A stretch of 51,010 nt of DNA from a virus: the IMG/VR virus record IMGVR_UViG_3300043219_000087, positions 1 to 51,010 of that record, one strand, 5' to 3'. A model generated the notes under the pieces. That model was given only the letters and a program-made list of their open reading frames with translations, searched no databases and was not told where the DNA came from. The position numbers and the translations under genes were made by a program. This document shows positions 2,767 to 43,550 of the stretch, one piece after another (the first letter of the stretch is position 1; every line of letters begins with the position of its first letter).

Positions 2767-3126
2767 ATGCAAGACACTAATCTAAACAGAGCCTCTACAG
2801 ATGAAAGAATAGACCCCGCTACCGAGAATTTGCAGCAGGCACTATTAACAGAGTTTGCGAGAAATTCAAAGAGAAGTACAGAGGATGTAAAATTTCAGTT
2901 GCTCACACTGGCGGCAAGTTCAGTAGTAGGGACACCTGAAGTGGGTCACGGCTGCAATTCCGTTAAATTCTGGACAGCTATGAGTGACTGTTATGTTGGA
3001 GACAAAGATAGTCAACCTGTCTTGCTCGTTGCAAGTATTTGGACCGAGCTTCCGCTCAACAACGTAGGTCAGTTGCGATTCAAGTCAGCGACAGGTGGTG
3101 CGATTTACATAATATCAAGTAATTGA
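2767..3126 (+). CDS. hypothetical protein (119 aa)
   Basis: The ATG follows GAAGAAGGAGTAAAG three bases after the GroES-like gene. The N-terminal half is polar and helical; the C-terminal half (from about FWTAMSDCYVGD) alternates in a beta-strand pattern and ends GGAIYIISSN. No signal peptide or catalytic motif is visible. Its position between the co-chaperonin and the protease suggests a late accessory role, which is inference only. Confidence 0.7.
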   Translation: MQDTNLNRASTDERIDPATENLQQALLTEFARNSKRSTEDVKFQLLTLAASSVVGTPEVGHGCNSVKFWTAMSDCYVGDKDSQPVLLVASIWTELPLNNVGQLRFKSATGGAIYIISSN

Positions 3127-3290: not shown

Positions 3291-3474
3291 TAATGTGAAG
3301 ATAATCTGTGATGAGGCGTTGATGAGTAAAGTACAGCGTACTGCTGTTGACGAGTCGCTGGGCAATATTGCCAGCAATTTGCAGGCACATGAAGTGATGC
3401 TTCAGGCGGCAAAAAATGAAGCAAAAGCAGATAAAGAGAAACCACAGCCGGAGGACGAACCTGATGAAACTTAG
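3265..3474 (+). CDS. small acidic helical protein (69 aa)
   Basis: The ATG at 3265 is preferred over an upstream in-frame start because TTTTGGAGGATTGCGAAA precedes it. The product (MLTLQESFNN...) is helical, with an acidic lysine/glutamate/proline tail ending EDEPDET. It overlaps the protease gene by 11 bases, and the GGAGGA inside its tail serves that gene, so the two are likely co-translated. No family recognised. Confidence 0.65.
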   Translation: MLTLQESFNNVKIICDEALMSKVQRTAVDESLGNIASNLQAHEVMLQAAKNEAKADKEKPQPEDEPDET

Positions 3475-4318
3475 AACAGTAGGTTATATTTTGGCGTGTA
3501 CGTTGACATTGTCTATGGTAATTTGTTTGCTCACGCCAAAAACTTTTTATGCAGACTACCGTACAATAATTGTAGAACCGTCAATAGTAGACATTATTCC
3601 CAGAATAAAAGCGGGTGTCGTGCATATAAGCACAAAGTCTTGGCAGGGCAGTGGTTTTGCGATTGCACCTAATATTGTTATGACTGCTCGTCACTGTGTA
3701 GAGAACGTGACAGATTTTACTATTACGACAGACGATGGGCACGAGTTGCATGCAACCAGAGCTATCTCCAGCAAGAAGCATGACATTGGGTTTATTTATA
3801 TTGATGATCATACATGCGTGACTGAAGGATGCGAATTTGAATACCCGTGTGGTAAAACAGCACTGCAAGGAGGGCATAAAGTAGAATTACAGCCGCTAAA
3901 ACTCGGCAGCATTACAGAGTGCCAACTCGGAGAGAAAGTAGTAACAATAGGTTCGCCCTACGGTAAGGTTAATTTTAACTCAGTGACATTGGGCATTATA
4001 TCAGGATTGGATAGGAATTATGACCCACTTAATGATTCTTATAGCGGTGATTACGGTTGGAGTATTGCGTTTCAAACCGATTCCCCTGGGCATCCAGGCA
4101 ATTCTGGTTGTGCTATTTTTACTACTGACGGTGTTGTTAGAGGCATATTGGTGGGCGGCTTTACGCCAAGCCTTATTATTGCTATGCCTGTGGATGTTGT
4201 CCTGGAAGAAATTGAACTTGTCAAACAGAAGTTCATAATGGACAAGTATTACAAAGAAGAAACACCTGAAGACCCGTATTACAACTATCGTGAGGACACT
4301 GAGTATTACACACTATGA
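3464..4318 (+). CDS. signal-anchored trypsin-like serine protease (HtrA-type fold)
   Basis: With the ATG at 3464 (site CCGGAGGACGAACCTG) the protein has 284 residues. Residues 5-24 form a hydrophobic segment behind MKLR, a signal peptide or membrane anchor. The chymotrypsin-fold triad is clear: His77 in TARHC, Asp107 in KKHDIGF, and Ser214 in PGHPGNSG, as in HtrA/DegP-like proteases. No PDZ domain follows; the tail is acidic and tyrosine-rich. Phages more often use ClpP-like or herpesvirus-type prohead proteases, and those carry no export signal. Possible roles are envelope attack, processing of surface proteins or exclusion. The neighbouring GroES and terminase leave a maturation role open. 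Confidence 0.88.
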   Translation: MKLRTVGYILACTLTLSMVICLLTPKTFYADYRTIIVEPSIVDIIPRIKAGVVHISTKSWQGSGFAIAPNIVMTARHCVENVTDFTITTDDGHELHATRAISSKKHDIGFIYIDDHTCVTEGCEFEYPCGKTALQGGHKVELQPLKLGSITECQLGEKVVTIGSPYGKVNFNSVTLGIISGLDRNYDPLNDSYSGDYGWSIAFQTDSPGHPGNSGCAIFTTDGVVRGILVGGFTPSLIIAMPVDVVLEEIELVKQKFIMDKYYKEETPEDPYYNYREDTEYYTL

Positions 4319-4761
4319 GTGACATTGAAGAAAGGCAAAAGAAGTTGACAGAACTGGGTGCCAAATGCAGGGCTGGTCAACTGATGACAACTTTATTCCG
4401 AGCAGTGGCTTCAGAAAAAACAGAACTAATGCAGTTTAAGGTTCCAGGTGACAACACCGGAAAAATGCAAACTCGATTGGTATCAAAGGCTGAAGCCATT
4501 GTAAGGGATATTATACAGAAGGCACTTCCTGTTGTGGAAGGTGTAGATGACCTTACTGATGCAAAGGTGCGACTTGAATACCGCAAACTTATTTTAGACC
4601 GCGTAGATGGTAGAGCCGGTGCAATAGGTGAAGACAATAAGAGTCGTGGTGAATCAGTGCCCAATAAAATATCGAGATTAAATAAGGACTTCCTGAATGA
4701 CCAAGCCAAAAGCACAGAAAAAGAAAAAGCGAAAACGAAATCCCGTCCACCTAAAGTATAA
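4315..4761 (+). CDS. candidate small terminase subunit (148 aa)
   Basis: The gene starts in an ATGA overlap with the protease stop. It encodes a helical, charged 148-residue protein with a lysine-rich tail (KEKAKTKSRPPKV). It lies one short frame upstream of the large terminase, where the DNA-recognising small subunit usually sits, and its size fits. I see no clear helix-turn-helix signature, so the call rests on position and composition. A scaffolding or unknown accessory role is equally possible. Confidence 0.45.
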   Translation: MSDIEERQKKLTELGAKCRAGQLMTTLFRAVASEKTELMQFKVPGDNTGKMQTRLVSKAEAIVRDIIQKALPVVEGVDDLTDAKVRLEYRKLILDRVDGRAGAIGEDNKSRGESVPNKISRLNKDFLNDQAKSTEKEKAKTKSRPPKV

Positions 4762-4872: not shown

Positions 4873-6831
4873 ATGCTGGGAGAAGGTTTTATTCAGAAAC
4901 CAGTTCTTGCTGAACCATTTCCGGTAGATAGAGAATTTTGGACGTGTCCTAAAACTGGTCTGGTTGTACCAAAGCGTTATGAAGCCAATCTGTTGTATCG
5001 TGAAAAAATCCTAAGAGCAGCAGAGAATGATCCAGTTTTGCAGCGTGATCTCAAGGCTGCTTGCAAGCTGAGTTCTCTATATTGGGTGAATACATTTGCA
5101 TTCACCAAACACGAGTTTGAAGTTGACCTCACAACTAAATCAGGCAGACGACCATCAACACAGACTCACTGGCCGTTTATTACTTGGCAAATTCAAGATG
5201 AGTTATTTGAGTGGTTTGAAGCCCACTTTTATGGTGGTGAGAGTGGTCTTGTAGACAAGTCGCGTGACATGGGTGCGAGTTGGTGTGGTGTGGCCTTTCT
5301 TCATTGGTTGTGGATGTTCCGGCCCAACACTGAAATACGTGAAATGTCACGGTCTGAGATATATGTGGATAGCCCTATTGCCAAGAGTCTGTTTTATAAA
5401 CATGACTATCTGAACATTTGGACGCCGGAATGGATGCGGCCTCCCGGTGTGATGCAAAAGGGGCGTGATAATAGAACTTCAATGAGGATTTATAATGCGG
5501 AAATTAATTCGACAATTGCAGGTGAATCTACTACAAAACATGCTATGTCTGCTGATAGGTGTTCTATTTTGTTTCTTGATGAGTTTGCTAAAGTTGACAA
5601 TGGAACCGACATCAGAACAGCGACTTATGATGTTAGTCCCTGCCGTATCGTTAATTCTACTGTTGCTGGTCCCGGCACTGAGTTTAGTAGATGGAAAAAC
5701 AGTGGACAAATAGATGTGTTCTCAATGATGTTTTGGGACCACCCCATGAAGGGCAAGGGGCGGTTCATTTTGCAGGACGAGATCACAAAGACATACAAAA
5801 TTTCTTCTCCGTTTATTGAGAAGGTTCTTGAGGAATGTACGCAGAAGGCTGTGGCCCAGGAATACTATGCTATTGACCTTGAAGCTGGTGACTTGTTCTT
5901 TGACTTGGGCGAGCTTAATAAACATATCGCGTTTTACGCCCGGCCTCCAATCTCACGACATAATATTATTTTGAAACCTGGAATTGCTGACGATGAACTG
6001 CCAAAACTCATTCAGGCAAAAAGCACAAAATGCTATACTATCAAAGAAGTTGTTGACGGCAAACTCGAAGTCTGGACAGAACTCATTGAAGGACGGCCAG
6101 ACCAAAGTTTCACATATATCTTTGGGATCGACACATCAAAGGGAATGGGAGCTTCTGAGTCAGTCGTTTCCATCAAATGTAAACAAACTGGTGAAATTAT
6201 TGCCCGTTGGGTGTGCAGAAACACACCTGTGCATGAGTTCAGTAGAATCGTTGTTGCTTTGTCTTTATGGTGTGGTGGAGCTAACCCACAAAGACTCCCA
6301 TATCTCAAGTGGGAAAAGAATGGAGACCCAGGATGGGACTTAGGCCGCTTGCTGGTTCACACATTTCAGTACCCGCATTACTACATCACTAAAACACTCG
6401 GTGCTGTGGTTGAGAAGACAAAAGGCACTAAAGGCGAAATGCAGAAGTATGGCTACCAAATGACGCATGAGGGCAAAAGCCTTTTGCTTCGTGCCTATGA
6501 ACGTGCATTGAAGACCTGCAAGACCATCAACCACTGCAAGGCCGGTCTTGAGCAGGCCAAACAGTATATTTATACTAAAGATAATCGTATTGAACCTGCT
6601 GAACTGGTTGAAGCTACTGCTGCTGAAAGAAAACTACACGGTGATAAGGTAATAGCAGATGCTTTAACTACTGAAGATGAAGAAGTATCTAATCCAAAAC
6701 CCAAAAGACCAGCTACTCCGCACAACTGTTGGGGTGCTCGGTATGATGGGTGGAAGAAAAAGAAAAAACGAAAGAAAAGACAAGATAAACGTGGGTGGAG
6801 TCAGGTTTATGATTACACCAAGCGTAAATGA
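4873..6831 (+). CDS. terL: terminase large subunit (TerL)
   Basis: This is the packaging motor: an ATPase that drives DNA into the prohead and a nuclease that cuts concatemers. The 652-residue protein has a phage-type Walker A variant KSRDMGAS (residues 129-136) and Walker B ILFLDEF (232-238). The nuclease domain starts around residue 413 with the acidic strand YIFGIDTSKG (Asp420). The C-terminus is a lysine-rich tail (KKKKKRKKR) that may contact DNA or the portal. Length and domain order match tailed-phage TerL proteins. It is followed by a small zinc-ribbon gene and the portal. Confidence 0.92.
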   Translation: MLGEGFIQKPVLAEPFPVDREFWTCPKTGLVVPKRYEANLLYREKILRAAENDPVLQRDLKAACKLSSLYWVNTFAFTKHEFEVDLTTKSGRRPSTQTHWPFITWQIQDELFEWFEAHFYGGESGLVDKSRDMGASWCGVAFLHWLWMFRPNTEIREMSRSEIYVDSPIAKSLFYKHDYLNIWTPEWMRPPGVMQKGRDNRTSMRIYNAEINSTIAGESTTKHAMSADRCSILFLDEFAKVDNGTDIRTATYDVSPCRIVNSTVAGPGTEFSRWKNSGQIDVFSMMFWDHPMKGKGRFILQDEITKTYKISSPFIEKVLEECTQKAVAQEYYAIDLEAGDLFFDLGELNKHIAFYARPPISRHNIILKPGIADDELPKLIQAKSTKCYTIKEVVDGKLEVWTELIEGRPDQSFTYIFGIDTSKGMGASESVVSIKCKQTGEIIARWVCRNTPVHEFSRIVVALSLWCGGANPQRLPYLKWEKNGDPGWDLGRLLVHTFQYPHYYITKTLGAVVEKTKGTKGEMQKYGYQMTHEGKSLLLRAYERALKTCKTINHCKAGLEQAKQYIYTKDNRIEPAELVEATAAERKLHGDKVIADALTTEDEEVSNPKPKRPATPHNCWGARYDGWKKKKKRKKRQDKRGWSQVYDYTKRK

Positions 6832-7056: not shown

Positions 7057-8877
7057 ATGCCAGTTGAACTTTCTGCATCTGATGTGAGCGAACTTGTAAG
7101 GAAGGGACACCAACGAGTAGAACACTACCGCAACGCTGCGGCCCAGTCGGTTAAGGATTATGTTGGCAATTACTACGTCAGACCGAGCGGCATGACTGGT
7201 GAGTATCCCATTAACCTTATTTTTGCCGCACTCAGAACTTGGGTGCCAAACCTTATAATGCAGGCAGGCATGAATAAGGTCTTAACACCGCTGGTTTCTC
7301 AGTCTGACTACGCATTCATGCTGGGTGAGGCACTGAATGAGCTTCATAAAAAAATTAAGATGAAGAACGTAATACGGGCCGGTGTGGTCAATATGATTCT
7401 TTGTGGCCTTGCGGTTTTTAAGACTTCAATTTTTGCAAGTGGAAATCTAATACCAGATGGGCCTAATGAATATATTGATCCCGGCCAGCTTTACACTGAC
7501 CTTATAAGTATTGATGATTTTTTCTTTGATCCTTATTGCGTTGCATTAAATAAATCGACACTAACCGGCCACTTTACCACTGTGAGACGGCAAGATTTAC
7601 TTGATGACGAGGGGTGGGATGAAAAACTGGTTAGGCGACTTCCGAACGCGTGGGATGGCGGTGCCAACGACAACAACAAAGCAAGGTTGTTAACACGCAA
7701 TCCATCTTTAACGCTTGAAATGATTAATGCTCAGGACTATGTTAGAGTTGGTGAGGTTTACTTGCCTGAAGCTAATGCTATAGCATACGTGCCTGATCCT
7801 AAACAAGCAACATACGATAACTTTCTAAAGGTTCAAGACTATTATGGCCCGTCAACTGGCCCTTATACGTTTGGTTCTATAACACCACCAGTACCGGACA
7901 ACCCCTTTCCAGTCGCTCCAGCATCTATATGGCGTGACTTAAATCTGATGGCCAACAGCCTGTTTACTAAACTTATGAATCAGGCTGATAATCAGAAGGA
8001 TGTTCTTCTTTATAAGCCGGGCATGGAAGACGTGGCTGACGCTATTGCTTCTGCGGTTGATGGACAACAGATAAGGACACCTGATCCACAAGGCGTAGAG
8101 GTAAAATCTTATGGCGGCGGCAATCCCAGCAACGACAAGATGACGCAGGAATTGCAGTTTTGGTTTAACTACATGTCTGGCGGTATTGACCAGATGAGTG
8201 GGCTGAAAACTGGTGCGGGGTCAAAGACTGCTACTGCTGTTAAGACGCTGCAAAACAACGCCACTATTACACAAGAAGATGCACGCAGCATGGTTAGTGA
8301 CACACAGGCTGACATAAGCGAAAAGCAAGCTTGGTTTATACACAACGATCCGTTTTTGAATGCACCGCTTACTATTCGCAGCACAGGCAAAAGCCCACAA
8401 CAGGTGGTTCTTACTCCTGAAGAAGTGCGTGGTGATTTTCTGAGCATGACTTTTACAATCGTTAAGCGGTCAATGCAGGGGGTAGACCCTGAACACAGGC
8501 GGCTGGCACTTGAAAAAATGCTTGTAAATATTATTCCCGGCACTGCTAACGCTGCTGTAATGTTTCAGCAAATGGGACAAGGATTCGATGCAGGACTACT
8601 TTTAACTAACGCTGCTGAAGAATTGGGCATAACCGAACTTTTTGCTGGGGTGTTTAATGACCCAGACTTCCAACGAAGATTACAAATGGCGGCACAAGCT
8701 GCTGGTCTTGACCCAGGCAAAGCAGGCAAATCAGGTGGGGCGTCACCTGCTGGGGCGATGCAGAACAATGGTAATCCGCAAGCTGTTCCTGTTAAGAATG
8801 AACAACAGGGTTTTAATCAGCAGGCACAGGCGGGGGCTAATCAGGCACAATCAGAAATTGCTGGAGGATTTGGATAA
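7057..8877 (+). CDS. portal protein
   Basis: The 606-residue protein directly follows the packaging genes and precedes a scaffold and capsid pair. It contains segments usual in podovirus-like portals: an N-terminal helical wing, EYIDPGQLYTDLISIDDFFFDP (about 145-170), where portals read the site-of-injection fold, and a long helical region (ASIWRDLNLMANSLFTKLMNQ) near residue 290. The tail is low-complexity and rich in glutamine, alanine and glycine. Portals form the dodecameric DNA channel at one capsid vertex and dock TerL. The call rests on size, context and general resemblance. Start site: TTAAGGAGTAAAT. Confidence 0.82.
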   Translation: MPVELSASDVSELVRKGHQRVEHYRNAAAQSVKDYVGNYYVRPSGMTGEYPINLIFAALRTWVPNLIMQAGMNKVLTPLVSQSDYAFMLGEALNELHKKIKMKNVIRAGVVNMILCGLAVFKTSIFASGNLIPDGPNEYIDPGQLYTDLISIDDFFFDPYCVALNKSTLTGHFTTVRRQDLLDDEGWDEKLVRRLPNAWDGGANDNNKARLLTRNPSLTLEMINAQDYVRVGEVYLPEANAIAYVPDPKQATYDNFLKVQDYYGPSTGPYTFGSITPPVPDNPFPVAPASIWRDLNLMANSLFTKLMNQADNQKDVLLYKPGMEDVADAIASAVDGQQIRTPDPQGVEVKSYGGGNPSNDKMTQELQFWFNYMSGGIDQMSGLKTGAGSKTATAVKTLQNNATITQEDARSMVSDTQADISEKQAWFIHNDPFLNAPLTIRSTGKSPQQVVLTPEEVRGDFLSMTFTIVKRSMQGVDPEHRRLALEKMLVNIIPGTANAAVMFQQMGQGFDAGLLLTNAAEELGITELFAGVFNDPDFQRRLQMAAQAAGLDPGKAGKSGGASPAGAMQNNGNPQAVPVKNEQQGFNQQAQAGANQAQSEIAGGFG

Positions 8878-9055: not shown

Positions 9056-9532
9056 ATGCCAAAGAAAAAGAAAAATGGGAAGGTAAAGAAGAAAAAGAAA
9101 AGACCAGAACTGGAAGTTGTGAAGACACAGTGGACCCCACTGATTGATTGGCTGTGGCCTGTGTTTTCTAAATACATTCGCACGCGGGACTGTATCAAAA
9201 CTTCTGGGTCGCCACTGCATGGGCGGTGTTGTACATGCAAGAGACTTTATCCAATTGGCAAACTCCAAGCAGGCCATTTTATGCCAGGTCGATACGACGC
9301 AATCTTGTTTGACGAAGAACAGGTTCACGCTCAGTGCTATCGCTGTAACTGTTTGCTTCAGGGTATGTGGCATAAATATTATCAGTTCATGCTGGATAAC
9401 GGACACACACACGATAGCATCCAAGAAATGATTGCACACTGCAACGATCCTGTGGAGTTTTCGAGAGAGTGGTTTGAGCAAACTTATGAATACTACATAA
9501 CTGAAACTGAGAAAATGTTGGAGGAATTTTGA
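9056..9532 (+). CDS. ninG: NinG/Rap-like recombination nuclease
   Basis: This 158-residue protein has the NinG (lambda Rap) signature: YIRTRDCIKT (40-49), a zinc pair CCTC (58-61), LQAGHFMPGR (70-79) and VHAQCYRCN (90-98). The His and Cys residues (Cys46, Cys58/59, Cys61, His74, His91, Cys94, Cys97) form the metal-binding HNH-like core. Rap is a Holliday-junction endonuclease that promotes recombination. The N-terminus is an added lysine tract. The gene is unusual here in lying inside the virion operon, right after the portal, so it may resolve branched DNA during packaging. Confidence 0.88.
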   Translation: MPKKKKNGKVKKKKKRPELEVVKTQWTPLIDWLWPVFSKYIRTRDCIKTSGSPLHGRCCTCKRLYPIGKLQAGHFMPGRYDAILFDEEQVHAQCYRCNCLLQGMWHKYYQFMLDNGHTHDSIQEMIAHCNDPVEFSREWFEQTYEYYITETEKMLEEF

Positions 9533-10038
9533 TGTTGATTGAATATTATGAATGTGATTGTAGTTATAAAGTAACAAGAGACGATATTGATACTGAGAAG
9601 ATTGTATTGGCAAGTCACATGGTTAACGAAGTGATAGAGGTAATTTGCTATGAATGTGGTGGGCCGTACGGAAAAAGGGTTCAGACTAAAAGGTATATAT
9701 GTCCAAACCCGAAGTGTGGAAAAGATTTGGTACTTAAAGAAGAATCTATTGGCGATGATGTAATTTGTGTGAATAAAATTGGTAATGTACTACAAGTTAT
9801 GGGTACACCCTACACGACACCAATACACTCAGACGCACTTGCACTAACACCTGAGAACGTGGCTGAACACAAGGAAAAGTTTCCTGATATTGAGATAGAC
9901 AGTGAACTTAGACCAGTATTCACAAACGCAAAACAGCACGAAGATTATATGAACAAATGTGGAATTAGAAAACAAACACAAAGAACTGGCCGGAGCAAGA
10001 GTAAAATTTATTCTTATCCTGGTAGTAAATGTTCTTAA
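9532..10038 (+). CDS. zinc-ribbon protein (168 aa)
   Basis: The ATG at 9532 overlaps the NinG stop (TGATG) behind TTGGAGGAATTT. The protein begins MLIEYYECDCSY and has cysteine pairs at CDC, CYECGG and CPNPKCGK in its first 70 residues, then a charged, likely folded region. These are rubredoxin-like zinc ribbons, possibly a pair of knuckles. Coupling to NinG may mean a shared role in DNA processing. No family recognised. Confidence 0.7.
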   Translation: MLIEYYECDCSYKVTRDDIDTEKIVLASHMVNEVIEVICYECGGPYGKRVQTKRYICPNPKCGKDLVLKEESIGDDVICVNKIGNVLQVMGTPYTTPIHSDALALTPENVAEHKEKFPDIEIDSELRPVFTNAKQHEDYMNKCGIRKQTQRTGRSKSKIYSYPGSKCS

Positions 10039-10398: not shown

Positions 10399-11577
10399 AT
10401 GAGTGAAAAAGGTGCACAAACTGGCGAAATCATGGACACAGACGATGCAAAGCAATACAATAGTCCAGAGGTTTTAGCCGCAACAACAGAAAGGTTGAAG
10501 AAGCTTGGTGGCAACCCGCCGCCAGTAGTAACGGCTGTGCCTGAAGTCATTAAGGAAGTTGATGGCAGTGATGTCACTCCTACCCCTGAAGATGACAATC
10601 AGGATGACAGCAACCTTGAAGTTGACAACAACACGGATGGTGATGAGGATGACGACGTTAAGGACGGCGATGACATTAAGGATGGTGGAGAAGAAGCAGT
10701 AACAATACCCGATAAGTTGTATAGAGCCGCTATCCACAATGAGTGGACGCCTGAACAGATTGTTGACCTTTGGAAACGCGAACCAGAGTTAGCCAAAAAG
10801 ACTTTGGAAAAGATGCACACGGATATGGTCAACACTAATAACGTCTACGCGGAACATGGGCGTGCAGCTAAACAACTTGAAGCACAGCGGACTGAAGCTT
10901 TACGGCAAGTTCCTGTGGTGCCAGACCCTCCAAAGGACTTTGTTGACATTAAACAGGCCGAGGAAGAATTTGGTGCGGGTGCTGCTGCTATAATCAAACA
11001 GCTTAATGACGCTTTGGTCAATGTGACGACACAACAACAGACACAACAACAGACACAGCAACAGCAGACGCAAGCACCCAGTGTGGTGCAGCAACCTGCC
11101 CCAGCCGCAAAGACTGAACAAAATTTAGCTGTAGTTCAACAGATGGGCCATTGGTTTGCTGATCCTGGTCTCAAACCTTACGAAGAATTTTATGGTGAGG
11201 CAACGGATTCAAATGGACTTATGCTTTTGACCAGAGATCATTTGACTCCTGTACAAAGGCAGAATAGAGAAGACCTGGTCAATTTGGCAGAGGATATTGA
11301 AGCGGGCGTGTTAATTCGTGCAGGCACTATAAGTGTAGCTGACGCGTTGACGGCTGCTCATGTTAATCTGACAAAGGATATGCAAACTGAAATCGTTCGC
11401 AAGGGAATTATGAAAAAGGCGAAGAAACGGGCAGATGGAGTGACGCTGCGGCCTGCTGGTAGTACAATTAAACCTAAAGAAGAACTCAAACCTGGAGAAA
11501 AAATATCAGAGAAGCAGGTTACTGTGAACGCAACCAGGCGGCTTGCACAGTTAGCTGCTGGCAAGCAAATGACATAA
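10399..11577 (+). CDS. scaffolding protein (putative)
   Basis: The 392-residue protein lies directly before the capsid gene, the usual scaffold position. Its N-terminal 110 residues are strongly acidic (long D/E stretches such as DDNQDDSNLEVD). The middle is helical, with a glutamine run near residue 212-225 (TQQQTQQQTQQQQTQ) and likely coiled coil. The C-terminus is basic (KKAKKRADG, ATRRLAQL). An acidic, elongated protein with a basic capsid-binding tail is typical of tailed-phage scaffolds. No protease domain is fused to it. Confidence 0.75.
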   Translation: MSEKGAQTGEIMDTDDAKQYNSPEVLAATTERLKKLGGNPPPVVTAVPEVIKEVDGSDVTPTPEDDNQDDSNLEVDNNTDGDEDDDVKDGDDIKDGGEEAVTIPDKLYRAAIHNEWTPEQIVDLWKREPELAKKTLEKMHTDMVNTNNVYAEHGRAAKQLEAQRTEALRQVPVVPDPPKDFVDIKQAEEEFGAGAAAIIKQLNDALVNVTTQQQTQQQTQQQQTQAPSVVQQPAPAAKTEQNLAVVQQMGHWFADPGLKPYEEFYGEATDSNGLMLLTRDHLTPVQRQNREDLVNLAEDIEAGVLIRAGTISVADALTAAHVNLTKDMQTEIVRKGIMKKAKKRADGVTLRPAGSTIKPKEELKPGEKISEKQVTVNATRRLAQLAAGKQMT

Positions 11578-11606: not shown

Positions 11607-12713
11607 ATGAGCACTGGCGTAAAAATGAGTGAGTTAGGCGATTTTATTTCTTTGACTCTTAATGATTTGCCGGATAACCACTTTGAGGTTAACTGGACTA
11701 ATCAGGACTATGAGTTCACCCGTATTTATCAGAGTGATCGAATGGTCGTTGATGGTGGAAATGAGATCGAGAGAAAGATTATGTTTGACAATAGTGGGCA
11801 CGCTCGGTATCGTTACAATTACGACACTGATGAGCCTTCAGTTGAAGATTTGATGTCTACTATTAAGGTTCCCTGGGTTCGCTTAGGAACCTATTATGGT
11901 TGGGACGACCTTGAGTTGCGGCGAAATTTGAATAACGCTGTGCGGATAGTGGATATAATGAAGGAGCGGCGGGTTGATGGTAGTTGGGCATTGGCTGACT
12001 TGATTGAAAGCCGGTCTTGGTTGACACCCACGAACGCAAGTGATACGCTTTATCCTTATGGCGTTCCCTATTACCTCAATCACATGACTTCCGGCTTAAG
12101 TGCCGATGGTTTTGTTGGCCAGACTATTACCTACCAGGATGGCTCAACTGGCACTGTTTGTGCCAATATTGACGCTTCGACTGCTGAGAAGTGGCGTAAC
12201 TACGTTGCGTTGTATAGTTCAATCAACAATGCTTTCCTCAAGAAGATAAGGATTGCAATGTGGAGTACAAAGTTTAAACCTCCGGTTATTCTTAACGATC
12301 CTTCACAAGCAGAGCGTACAGCACAGAAGCGTTTCTATAGTGATATAGAAACTGTTGCTGAAATGATGGATTTCGCTGATGCTAAGGATGACAACCATAG
12401 TGGCAAAGAAGTGCTTGGTGGTTTGATCGTGGACGACACTGGCCTTGTTTTGCTGAACCGGATGCCTGTTGTGCCTATCGCAAACTTAGCAGGTGTGACT
12501 GATCCTGAATCTGGTATTGCTACTGCACCAATTTATTGCGTTGACTTTAGTTACTTCGTGCCGTTTGTTCACGATGGTTATTGGATGATTGAGTCTGAGC
12601 CGATGACTGACCGGACTCAGCATACCTCTTATACTGTCTTTCTTGATGGTGCTCATAACAATGTTTGCACTAACAGAAAGAAAGCCGGATTTGTAATGCA
12701 CAAATCTCATTAA
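11607..12713 (+). CDS. major capsid protein (putative)
   Basis: The 368-residue protein follows the scaffold gene and is flanked by hairpins, as strongly expressed genes often are. It begins MSTGVKMSELGDFISLTL. It has segments that look like HK97-fold capsid regions: an N-terminal arm, RIYQSDRMVVDGGNEIERKI as an extended loop (about 35-55), and a C-terminal beta region (VPIANLAGVTDPESG ... CVDFSYFVPFV). No Ig-like insertion is evident. The call is by position, size and overall pattern. The start follows AAAGAAGGTTGAAC; a second in-frame ATG 15 bases on is possible. Confidence 0.8.
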   Translation: MSTGVKMSELGDFISLTLNDLPDNHFEVNWTNQDYEFTRIYQSDRMVVDGGNEIERKIMFDNSGHARYRYNYDTDEPSVEDLMSTIKVPWVRLGTYYGWDDLELRRNLNNAVRIVDIMKERRVDGSWALADLIESRSWLTPTNASDTLYPYGVPYYLNHMTSGLSADGFVGQTITYQDGSTGTVCANIDASTAEKWRNYVALYSSINNAFLKKIRIAMWSTKFKPPVILNDPSQAERTAQKRFYSDIETVAEMMDFADAKDDNHSGKEVLGGLIVDDTGLVLLNRMPVVPIANLAGVTDPESGIATAPIYCVDFSYFVPFVHDGYWMIESEPMTDRTQHTSYTVFLDGAHNNVCTNRKKAGFVMHKSH

Positions 12714-12798: not shown

Positions 12799-13635
12799 AT
12801 GAGTGTACAAGAATATGGTCGTGCTGGTAATGCTGCCCAACCGAGTCCTAATATTTGGAAAGACTTTCCTATGGGTGCGGTTAATAAGAGTCCTGGGTGT
12901 TTCGTTCATATCTGGGAAGATTTTCTTGGTAATTTCACTGATAATGATGTGCAGAATGTAGGAAGCAATCAGTTGCTGGTGGCTGGGACGAGTCCTGACA
13001 CAGCTAATGTTGCTGATGAGGCAAATGGTGTTATTAATCTGAGTGGAAGTGGTGGTGGTAATGATGAGGTTATCATCGGTGCCAACCTTCTGCAAGATGA
13101 GCTTATTAAGTTAAACAGCGGATTACGATGCTGGTTTGAAACGCGACTCAAGATGGATGACACTTCTGCCGATGTTTCGATTCTTGTTGGTCTTGGTGCC
13201 ATTGAACTTCTGGCTGCTGATTTCATTGACAATGAAGGTGCTACCAGAAATAACATAGCTGATTATGATTTTATTGGTTTCCACACTGATAACGATGGAA
13301 CTAATCAAGGTGCTATGGAGACAGCCTATCATCAAACTGGTGACGGCGGCGGGCTTACTGCTATTCAAGCTGCGATTCGCACGTTTGGTGCCGGTACTAC
13401 TTATGATGACGTTTACATGAAACTCGGTTTTAGGTTTGACGGCAAGAAGACTGTCACGTTTTACCTTGATGGTGCACAGCTTGGAACCAAACTTGATATT
13501 GATGATCTTACTGGTAACAAATTTGACGCCCCGCTCACCATTCTTGCGGGTCTCAAGGACTTTGCTGGTGGTAATGACGATCTCAAGGTTGACTGGATTC
13601 GTTACGGTGCGGAAAAGTTTGCAAGTGGTATTTAA
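12799..13635 (+). CDS. lectin-fold virion protein A (278 aa)
   Basis: This protein and the product at 15229 share the order VHIWEDFLGNF, CWFETRLKMDD, VGLGAIELL, DFIGFHTDND, MKLGFRFDGKKTV and FYLDGAQLGTKL. Alternating strands of this kind fit a concanavalin/LamG-like jelly roll. It sits right after the capsid gene between hairpins, so it is probably an abundant virion component such as a capsid decoration or glycan-binding spike. No signal peptide. The start follows AAAGGAGAAACAG. Confidence 0.7.
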   Translation: MSVQEYGRAGNAAQPSPNIWKDFPMGAVNKSPGCFVHIWEDFLGNFTDNDVQNVGSNQLLVAGTSPDTANVADEANGVINLSGSGGGNDEVIIGANLLQDELIKLNSGLRCWFETRLKMDDTSADVSILVGLGAIELLAADFIDNEGATRNNIADYDFIGFHTDNDGTNQGAMETAYHQTGDGGGLTAIQAAIRTFGAGTTYDDVYMKLGFRFDGKKTVTFYLDGAQLGTKLDIDDLTGNKFDAPLTILAGLKDFAGGNDDLKVDWIRYGAEKFASGI

Positions 13636-15228: not shown

Positions 15229-16236
15229 ATGCGATTTAGATGGAGTGATATTAGGGACGCAGTGTTTCCGACGTCTGGAAGCACAAGAACCATTATCAAT
15301 AGTGGTAGTGGGAAACTCAAAGTTTATGGCACAGTGGTTCCGGCCAATGGAATTGCTGGATTTGCCAAAGGTTGTAAGTTTATTGATACAGCCTATGGTA
15401 GTGATTACGTCAACAAAGGATCGAACACAAGTTGTGAGTTCCACGAATTAGCGGCTGTTCCAAACTATGCTGAGACTGCTGCTGATCGCGGTCCAAGTCC
15501 TTTGATTTGGGATAGCTGTCCAATACTGGAGTACACATTTAATCCAGTAAAGGGTTCGCATTACTTTGAGGACTTTAAGGGTGACATTCTTAGTGTGACT
15601 AACAGCACAATGAAGAACAGTCATCTGGGCTTTTTCAATTCTAATGGTCCTACTCACCAGATTACGAATGATGACGTACACGGTGTGCTTCGGATCGAAG
15701 GCAACGACGCTGACAATGATGAGTCCTACATGAGTTATGGTGGTGAAGGCGGTGTAATGGCACCGACAGCAGGCAAAAAGTTTTGGTTTGAAGCTCGTGT
15801 GAGGCGGGACACTGTAACTGATAATGAACTTGCAATGTTCATTGGTCTTGCGGAAGAAGGTCTTTGTGCAACAAATTCACTTGATATTAACACCGGCGAC
15901 CTTCTTGTCGCTAAAGACTGGCTCGGTTTTCATGTTGATCACGGCAATGGTAACGCCATTGACTTTGTTCACGGTGACGGTTCTGGTGAAGCTGTTGTAG
16001 CAGGGGCTGATGTTTGTACGCCAACTGCGGGAGCATTCAACAAACTTGGCTTGTACTGTGATGGTGTAACGGTATTCGCATATTGTGATGGTGTGTTGGT
16101 AGACTCCATATTGTTGTCGGCTTCTGATATGCCCCTCAATGAAGAACTCGGCTTGTATCTCCTGTTTAGGAATGGCGGCACTTCCACCGAGTTCAAAGGT
16201 TCTATCGACTGGTGGAGAATTGCAGTAGAATATTAA
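15229..16236 (+). CDS. lectin-fold virion protein B (335 aa), paralogue of A
   Basis: Residues about 100-335 parallel virion protein A: YFEDFKGDI, FWFEARVRRDT, MFIGLAEEGL, DWLGFHVDHGNG, NKLGLYCDGVTVF, AYCDGVLVDSI. The first 75 residues form an extra module (GIAGFAKGCKFIDT, YVNKGSNTSCEFHEL) like a recurrent phage surface/fibre module of the form AKG-x-FID...YxNxG. So B is an A-like jelly roll with an added N-terminal attachment domain. The pair probably arose by duplication, followed by insertion of the adaptor gene or relocation. Likely a virion surface protein. Confidence 0.7.
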   Translation: MRFRWSDIRDAVFPTSGSTRTIINSGSGKLKVYGTVVPANGIAGFAKGCKFIDTAYGSDYVNKGSNTSCEFHELAAVPNYAETAADRGPSPLIWDSCPILEYTFNPVKGSHYFEDFKGDILSVTNSTMKNSHLGFFNSNGPTHQITNDDVHGVLRIEGNDADNDESYMSYGGEGGVMAPTAGKKFWFEARVRRDTVTDNELAMFIGLAEEGLCATNSLDINTGDLLVAKDWLGFHVDHGNGNAIDFVHGDGSGEAVVAGADVCTPTAGAFNKLGLYCDGVTVFAYCDGVLVDSILLSASDMPLNEELGLYLLFRNGGTSTEFKGSIDWWRIAVEY

Positions 16237-30567: not shown

Positions 30568-31059
30568 TCACACCTTACTCATACATTCATTTCTCACTGC
30601 TGTCTTAGCAGCAACCACAATTTCTTGATGCTCTGCGGGTGTTAGATCATTCTTACGTTTCTGCATCCGGCCCACCATCAAACTAATACCACCCACGCCA
30701 AGCAACCCCATTATGCTCATCGGGTTGTCAACACTACCAACTACAATATCCTGAAAGTTCATTGAATCTGTGATGTTAGTATCAATGAACCTTATAGCAT
30801 CACCGTGTTCAAACTTGCTGTCCTGGGCCAATCGTTTCAAACTAAGCTGTTCCACACGGTACTTGATCGTAATGCGTTCTCGTATCTGCTTGGCTTCATA
30901 CAACGTCATAATGCCCAGCGGTGGGAACTCACGGTCTGCGTAAGCCATTGACTGTTCTGTTACCTCACATGGAGTGAAGCGGTCAATGAACCCTCCACAT
31001 GAAACGCCAGCAAGACAAACCAAACACAATATTATTAGTGCTACATTTTTGTAGTCCAT
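30568..31059 (-). CDS. exported/membrane protein (163 aa), lysis-module candidate
   Basis: The N-terminus (MDYKNVALIILCLVCLAGVSC) is a signal sequence or membrane anchor with a cysteine that could be a weak lipobox, although the -3 residue is Gly rather than Leu. A second hydrophobic segment (SIMGLLGVGGISLMVG) lies near residues 114-129, followed by RMQKRKND. The middle is soluble and charged. Such a layout could belong to a spanin, a holin or an inner-membrane accessory protein. The ribosome site is GGGAGATAGAAT. Confidence 0.55.
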   Translation of the reverse strand: MDYKNVALIILCLVCLAGVSCGGFIDRFTPCEVTEQSMAYADREFPPLGIMTLYEAKQIRERITIKYRVEQLSLKRLAQDSKFEHGDAIRFIDTNITDSMNFQDIVVGSVDNPMSIMGLLGVGGISLMVGRMQKRKNDLTPAEHQEIVVAAKTAVRNECMSKV

Positions 31060-42958: not shown

Positions 42959-43104
42959 TACATTTTCCTCCAAAACACAAGCATCTGTACTATTCCCAGC
43001 AAAATGGACGCAACACCGCTTCGCCAATGTCGGGCAAAAAGGTCACACGCACCGAGGCCAAAAAATGAACCTACCATCATGCAGAAAAATAATATTCTAA
43101 ACAT
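42958..43104 (-). CDS. small two-span membrane protein (48 aa)
   Basis: Between the diphosphohydrolase-like and nucleotidase genes, with TAATG overlaps on both sides and site GGAGGAAAGTA. MFRILFFCMMVGSFFGLG is a first span and VASILLGIVQMLVFW a second, with an arginine- and histidine-rich loop between. This is holin-like in size but placed in a replication block. It may tether the enzymes to the membrane or be a lysis candidate. Confidence 0.55.
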   Translation of the reverse strand: MFRILFFCMMVGSFFGLGACDLFARHWRSGVASILLGIVQMLVFWRKM

Positions 43105-43550
43105 TACTTTCCTCCTATTTCATGGTCAACTTCAGTGAAGGGTGGTACACAGTCTGGATACTTTTCAATCACGGTTGCCACTGCTGGATTATTCCTCATT
43201 AGTTTATTAGCATGTGGATAGCGTGGTGGCCTATCATCAATCCAGTTTTCCATCATCATTGAATCACGCACAACAGCTATACATGCCATAGCTTTTGCAA
43301 GGTGGTGAAGCCCGCTAACAGGATCAACATCTTCACCTTCCCACCACGCTGTTAAGTGCCCCATTGCGGCATCATAATAAACTGAAGCTTTGACACCCAT
43401 CACTCTATAGTTGTGGCGACCATACTTCCTTGCTCCTTCTAACATAGCCAACGCTACTTCATACATCGGCCCAGTAGGAAGCGTGGACAGTGGTGCCTTT
43501 TTAATACCAAGTGCGTCTTTTGGGTTGGTTGGTTTAGTTTCTGGATTCAT
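43104..43550 (-). CDS. dATP/dGTP diphosphohydrolase-like protein (DUF5664 type, 148 aa)
   Basis: The signature is NPKDALGIKKAPLSTLP (9-25), GARKYGRHNYR (39-49), YYDAAMGHLTAWWEGEDVDP and GLHHLAKAMACIA (60-93), with HLTAWWEGE resembling the metal-binding ExxE region of MazG-like all-helical enzymes. The family hydrolyses dATP or dGTP to the monophosphate and pyrophosphate. In 2-aminoadenine phages a member (MazZ) feeds base Z synthesis, but no PurZ is seen here, so a general purine pool role is likelier. Strong site: CAGGAGATAAAG. Confidence 0.75.
   Translation of the reverse strand: MNPETKPTNPKDALGIKKAPLSTLPTGPMYEVALAMLEGARKYGRHNYRVMGVKASVYYDAAMGHLTAWWEGEDVDPVSGLHHLAKAMACIAVVRDSMMMENWIDDRPPRYPHANKLMRNNPAVATVIEKYPDCVPPFTEVDHEIGGK

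Follow-up and report, generated by a model that had tools for sequence, protein, structure and literature searches.

A predicted exported, HtrA-type serine protease lacking a PDZ domain, encoded beside the terminase genes in a lineage of uncultured phages

The protease gene and its surroundings

The window, that is, the whole stretch of DNA analysed, is an entire virus record of 51,010 bases from IMG/VR. A tRNA-His gene (GTG; 1202-1275, + strand) lies near its left end, just before a block of forward-strand genes. The features considered here are as follows.

2336-2764, +: GroES/Cpn10 homologue (Pfam Cpn10, 1.2e-22), upstream of the protease gene
2767-3126, +: "c5", a conserved 119-aa protein found beside the protease in many relatives
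3451-3455, +: GGAGG, Shine-Dalgarno-like, directly 5' of the protease ATG
3464-4318, +: serine protease of HtrA type (S1C-like, PDZ-less) with a predicted signal anchor, 284 aa; catalytic residues H77, D107 and S214
3479-3535, +: codons of the hydrophobic stretch at the N-terminus (residues 6-24), predicted to serve as a signal anchor or signal peptide with N-in/C-out topology
3647-4147, +: Trypsin_2 domain (Pfam; residues 62-228)
4229-4315, +: C-terminal tail from about residue 256, acidic and tyrosine-rich, without PDZ, of low model confidence
4315-4761, +: putative small terminase subunit (TerS), by position and conservation, overlapping the protease stop by 4 nt
4873-6831, +: large terminase subunit (TerL; PHROG terminase, 1.6e-08)
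7057-8877, +: portal protein, SU10-type, below the Pfam cut-off, conserved after TerL
10399-11577, +: putative scaffold, inferred from position and acidic character
11607-12713, +: putative major capsid protein (MCP), by position and conservation

The protease was read from the ATG at 3464 to the stop codon at 4316-4318; an alternative in-frame ATG at 3416 has no comparable Shine-Dalgarno-like site. As a preliminary description of this DNA had it, the gene stands next to GroES and the terminase, with the Cpn10 homologue upstream and TerS and TerL downstream on the same strand. The AlphaFold2 model of the putative MCP (pLDDT 41) was uninformative on fold, and a profile search of the PDB gave no capsid match for this protein. 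Neither the portal nor the putative-MCP segment was matched among GenBank phages. Further along the structural region, two mutually similar late proteins of the same BLAST cluster (12799-13635 and 15229-16236, both +) represent a gene duplication.

Catalytic domain and N-terminal segment

The triad H77, D107 and S214, the serine lying within a GNSG motif, was found intact at the positions given in the preliminary description. Pfam Trypsin_2 (clan PA) matched the protein with E = 1.8e-18 over positions 1-144 of its 144, at 68.1 bits against a curated cut-off of 27.6, and it was matched by all 33 of the diverse relatives as well. Loss of the triad was looked for in the relatives and was not seen: it is kept in 17 of 17 close complete homologues and, together with GxSG, in 69 of the 70 wider homologues in which the triad region is present. 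The sole exception, L068, reads HGCSGG and looks like an alignment slip.

A 33-member profile of the protease matched HTRA1 at 2.7e-46. The AlphaFold2 model, made with 17 relatives, had a mean pLDDT of 73.6, with a well-predicted core (blocks near 90), an N-terminal helix at residues 2-23 and, beyond about residue 258, a tail modelled with low confidence. Foldseek with this model matched MucD at 2.6e-12, and HtrA1, DegQ and DegP were also among the fold matches (Foldseek/VIA-align). In VIA-align, DegP gave Z 23.6 (rmsd 2.8, 183 aligned) and DegS lacking PDZ gave Z 21.8 (rmsd 3.0, 177 aligned). By profile and predicted fold the catalytic domain is of the HtrA (S1C) type. A domain search found no PDZ match in the window protease or in 33 relatives; only a short stretch follows the catalytic domain, and the PDZ domain of a full-length HtrA/Deg (S1C) protein is absent. 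None of the NCBIfam HtrA subfamily cut-offs was reached (degP_htrA_DO, 67.6 bits against 416.2; DegS, 24.4 bits against 422.95). The protease is accordingly placed with S1C-like protease domains and lacks the PDZ domain that marks complete HtrA proteins; the HtrA assignment made previously stands for the catalytic domain and falls for the protein as a whole.

DegP/DegQ/MucD and HTRA1, which the catalytic domain matches best in sequence and fold, differ from the protease, which has no PDZ domain. As judged from sequence and model, the protein resembles an anchored DegS without its PDZ. DegS, which is inner-membrane anchored and periplasmic, likewise joins an anchor at its N-terminus to an HtrA-type trypsin-like domain, but the two are about 21% identical in structural alignment, and the protease is phage-encoded, has no PDZ and carries the acidic, tyrosine-rich tail. 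Two phage families annotated "protease", PHROG 11383 (1.3e-18) and PHROG 9683 (6.5e-14), share the trypsin-like domain with it, with partial coverage of the profiles.

The hydrophobic segment described earlier as implying anchoring or export was recovered: residues 6-24 average 2.13 on the Kyte-Doolittle scale, and K2 and R4 lie before them. Soluble relatives were sought, but a strong N-terminal hydrophobic segment was present in all 64 complete homologues (17-residue mean at least 1.89), while only 5 of 540 background ORFs (+ strand, at least 180 aa, from the same loci) reached 1.85. Identity between relatives averages 19% in the segment region against 64% in the catalytic part; that hydrophobicity is universal despite such low identity points to selection on the physical property. 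For dN/dS among homologues three pairs were usable; dS was saturated for several, and two L015 pairs were misaligned. The mean charge of homologues is +1.9 before the segment and +0.1 after it, and N-in/C-out is favoured over the reverse by charge in 47 cases against 10. Under the positive-inside rule the more positive side of a segment predicts the cytosolic side, and the catalytic domain is therefore predicted to lie outside; a reverse (C-in) anchor is formally possible. By hydrophobicity and charge, the protein thus has the N-terminal hydrophobic segment and positive n-region of an exported or membrane-anchored protein.

Among the relatives, L003 has a lipobox-like LTGC and L013 has ASGLAQ, which resembles a cleavable, signal-peptidase-like site; the common outcome would therefore be export and not anchoring. 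Four others (L007, L008, L012 and L016) have a long stalk between segment and enzyme that, judged by eye, looks like a coiled coil. From hydrophobicity, charge asymmetry and these lipobox and cleavage-site look-alikes we infer that the protease is exported. A disulfide was also considered as an argument for a periplasmic location and was set aside: every member of the close family has C153, but C118, which might pair with it, varies.

The likeness to DegS raises the idea that an anchored, PDZ-less DegS-like protease cleaves an anti-sigma factor (e.g. RseA) and so switches on the host envelope-stress response. Anchor and S1C domain together match DegS, as does the fold of DegS lacking PDZ, and in the relative L078 residues 2-205 align to DegS model positions 5-214, almost from the N-terminus. 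Substrate specificity, however, is not readable from sequence, the presence of RseA would depend on the host, and a relative bearing a lipobox or a cleavable signal would not sit anchored in the inner membrane as DegS does. This role is considered very improbable.

Occurrence among relatives and inheritance with the head genes

IMG/VR was scanned twice for relatives, with the protease protein and then with an alignment, and the second scan yielded 22 related protease loci. In nearly all loci found through the protease, the gene adjoins TerL or portal, mostly upstream of TerS/TerL; in five (L007, L010, L011, L014 and L017) it directly follows portal, and in one exception (L008) BLAST clustering gave no TerL or portal match. 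The reverse test, with TerL and portal as bait, gave 90 distinct TerL loci, 61 of them with at least 1.5 kb upstream. A protease homologue was present in 50 of these 61, always upstream of TerL and on the same strand, with a median gap to TerL of 677 nt. Across the lineage the genes are repeatedly arranged as c5 - protease - TerS - TerL - portal. The arrangement had been called unusual; in this lineage it is instead the rule.

Matches to the protease among GenBank phages were weak (41% or less, over part), and searches of the literature found this phage family nowhere described. An annotated GenBank record taken as a candidate cultured-phage relative carries bacterial cytochrome-maturation genes and was set aside as what seems to be bacterial DNA under a wrong label. 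A recent transfer of the gene from a bacterial host was likewise rejected, a single pattern-based scan of GTDB genomes, which reaches near relatives only, having found no close relative. One protease homologue lies on a contig of a MAG labelled Neptuniibacter, and a contig of a MAG labelled Planctomycetota has head genes and no protease nearby; such labels alone are no proof of host.

Most of what is known of proteases encoded by phages concerns capsid maturation. The protease might accordingly be a prohead maturation protease that cleaves scaffold or capsid during head assembly, its N-terminal segment holding assembly at the membrane. Like the prohead maturation proteases of tailed phages, it lies within the head gene block, its adjacency to head genes is conserved, the position directly after portal in five loci is the usual prohead-protease slot, and no other prohead protease was recognised among the window ORFs scanned. 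Unlike them, it has an HtrA fold and, in all complete homologues, an export-type N-terminus, and relatives carrying the same putative capsid genes lack it. In eight TerL loci that extend 3.5 kb or more upstream, no protease homologue was found there or in the rest of their records, which are possibly incomplete; all eight keep TerS, TerL and portal, and also the putative scaffold and MCP where the contig extends far enough. The putative MCP has about 14 residues before its conserved core whether or not the phage has the protease, which gives no sign of a propeptide to be removed.

On a tree of 81 TerL rows, presence and absence of the protease required five changes, at least four of them forced by well-supported branches. 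Nor does the protease track the terminase: identities to the window for protease and TerL are 70% and 23% in L007, 65% and 24% in L010, and 29% and 62% in L036. The correlation of the two identities (rho 0.01) is biased, as some loci were found through the protease and others through TerL, but the discordant pairs are safe despite this. Apparently, the protease has been exchanged horizontally between phages. The discordant identities, together with protease-less relatives that keep their head genes, argue for an accessory function that is independent of any one capsid.

A prohead protease would lack an export signal and be inherited with its capsid (here assigned by position and conservation), and neither was found. 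On the MCP N-termini, the absences and the TerL discordance, the prohead role was judged quite unlikely, which bears out the earlier view that this is not a typical prohead protease. Since the protease occurs with unrelated heads, as far as MCP and scaffold can be assigned by position and conservation, it is more likely host-directed than capsid-directed.

Two interrupted genes were noted among the packaging loci. In L018 (8765-11040) the terL homologue is split by a 144-aa HNH-endonuclease-like ORF (9522-9956) between two TerL fragments; no Rfam intron was found there at gathering score, and an intron, intein or homing insertion is possible. The portal homologue of L002 (4124-5891) is in two ORFs, perhaps through a frameshift or a split gene.

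Possible roles at the host envelope

The reading we prefer, and hold to be probable, is that the protein is an exported, host-envelope-directed phage protease, exchanged between phages and probably made late, as its position in the operon suggests. The N-terminal segment would take the HtrA-type catalytic domain through the inner membrane, acting as a signal anchor in the window protease and, in some relatives, apparently as a lipoprotein signal or a cleavable one. Once outside, the domain would cleave host envelope proteins, its presumed substrates, late in infection. Having no PDZ, it would lack the peptide-sensing switch of DegS/DegP and may be active by default or gated in another way.

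The purpose ranked first, still tentatively, is the clearing of misfolded or damaged envelope proteins, which would sustain the envelope during late production. A role in maintaining or degrading the envelope owes its leading place to recurrent neighbours with proteostasis or membrane functions, namely GroES, HflK-like Band_7 and HExxH proteins. By hand count from the gene-order list, about 22 distinct loci have a Band_7/SPFH (HflK-like) gene in this region and the protease accompanies it in 19, while small HExxH proteins occur in about 17 distinct loci. In protease-less relatives this region holds Band_7 genes as well as genes for acetyltransferase-like and small lipoprotein-like products, which suggests a variable slot, and the Band_7 and GroES neighbours may be passengers of one such slot. 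Band_7/SPFH genes lie beside packaging genes in L003 (2171-2701) and also in L010, L011, L127, L134 and L153. Small HExxH proteins near the protease or packaging genes were seen at L012 5842-6138, L007 5826-6089, L016 4522-4788 and L133 4877-5230, the last with a weak resemblance to SprT-like proteins.

Release of progeny by cutting envelope proteins was ranked second and is somewhat less probable. As a lysis factor, the exported protease would cut outer-membrane or cell-wall-linked proteins and supplement or replace a peptidoglycan hydrolase. The export-type signal and the position in the packaging operon fit this, and no endolysin or holin was recognised with PHROGs or Pfam among the window ORFs scanned; many window ORFs are unannotated, however, and may hide lysis genes, the sole PHROG "endolysin" match is a dATP/dGTP diphosphohydrolase by Pfam, and the protease is missing from some relatives. 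We regard a lysis factor as doubtful. The match in question (43104-43550, - strand) is to PHROG 2252, "endolysin; inhibits RNA polymerase", at 2.9e-62, against 3.9e-26 for the Pfam dATP/dGTP diphosphohydrolase N-terminal domain, and the PHROG label looks wrong.

Ranked third, and less probable again, is removal of a surface receptor or a block to superinfection, in which the protease would strip the phage receptor or prevent entry of other phages. Export and apparent horizontal exchange between phage lineages suit a gene of inter-phage competition. Exclusion genes are usually early or lysogenic, however, unlike a gene in the packaging block, and that so large a share of the lineage keeps it points to a more general advantage; this role is rather unlikely.

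For the preferred reading of an envelope-directed protease, the wider distribution suggests that phages of this group attack or manage the host cell envelope late in infection. It is possible, though we would not lean towards it, that a lineage-wide, near-core, horizontally swapped PDZ-less HtrA-type protease sent to the host envelope, often with HflK-like Band_7 or GroES nearby, constitutes, in this large lineage, a module for remodelling the envelope that differs from both holin-endolysin-spanin lysis and capsid proteases. If an exported protease is retained by most of a diverse group of uncultured phages and occurs in phages with very different terminases, envelope proteolysis would be a standard step of infection. 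The protease provides a concrete enzyme with which lysis, envelope-stress and superinfection functions can be tested.

Elsewhere in the window, a 163-aa ORF (30568-31059, - strand) has a lipoprotein-like N-terminus, LAGVSCGG, and is a possible second envelope protein.
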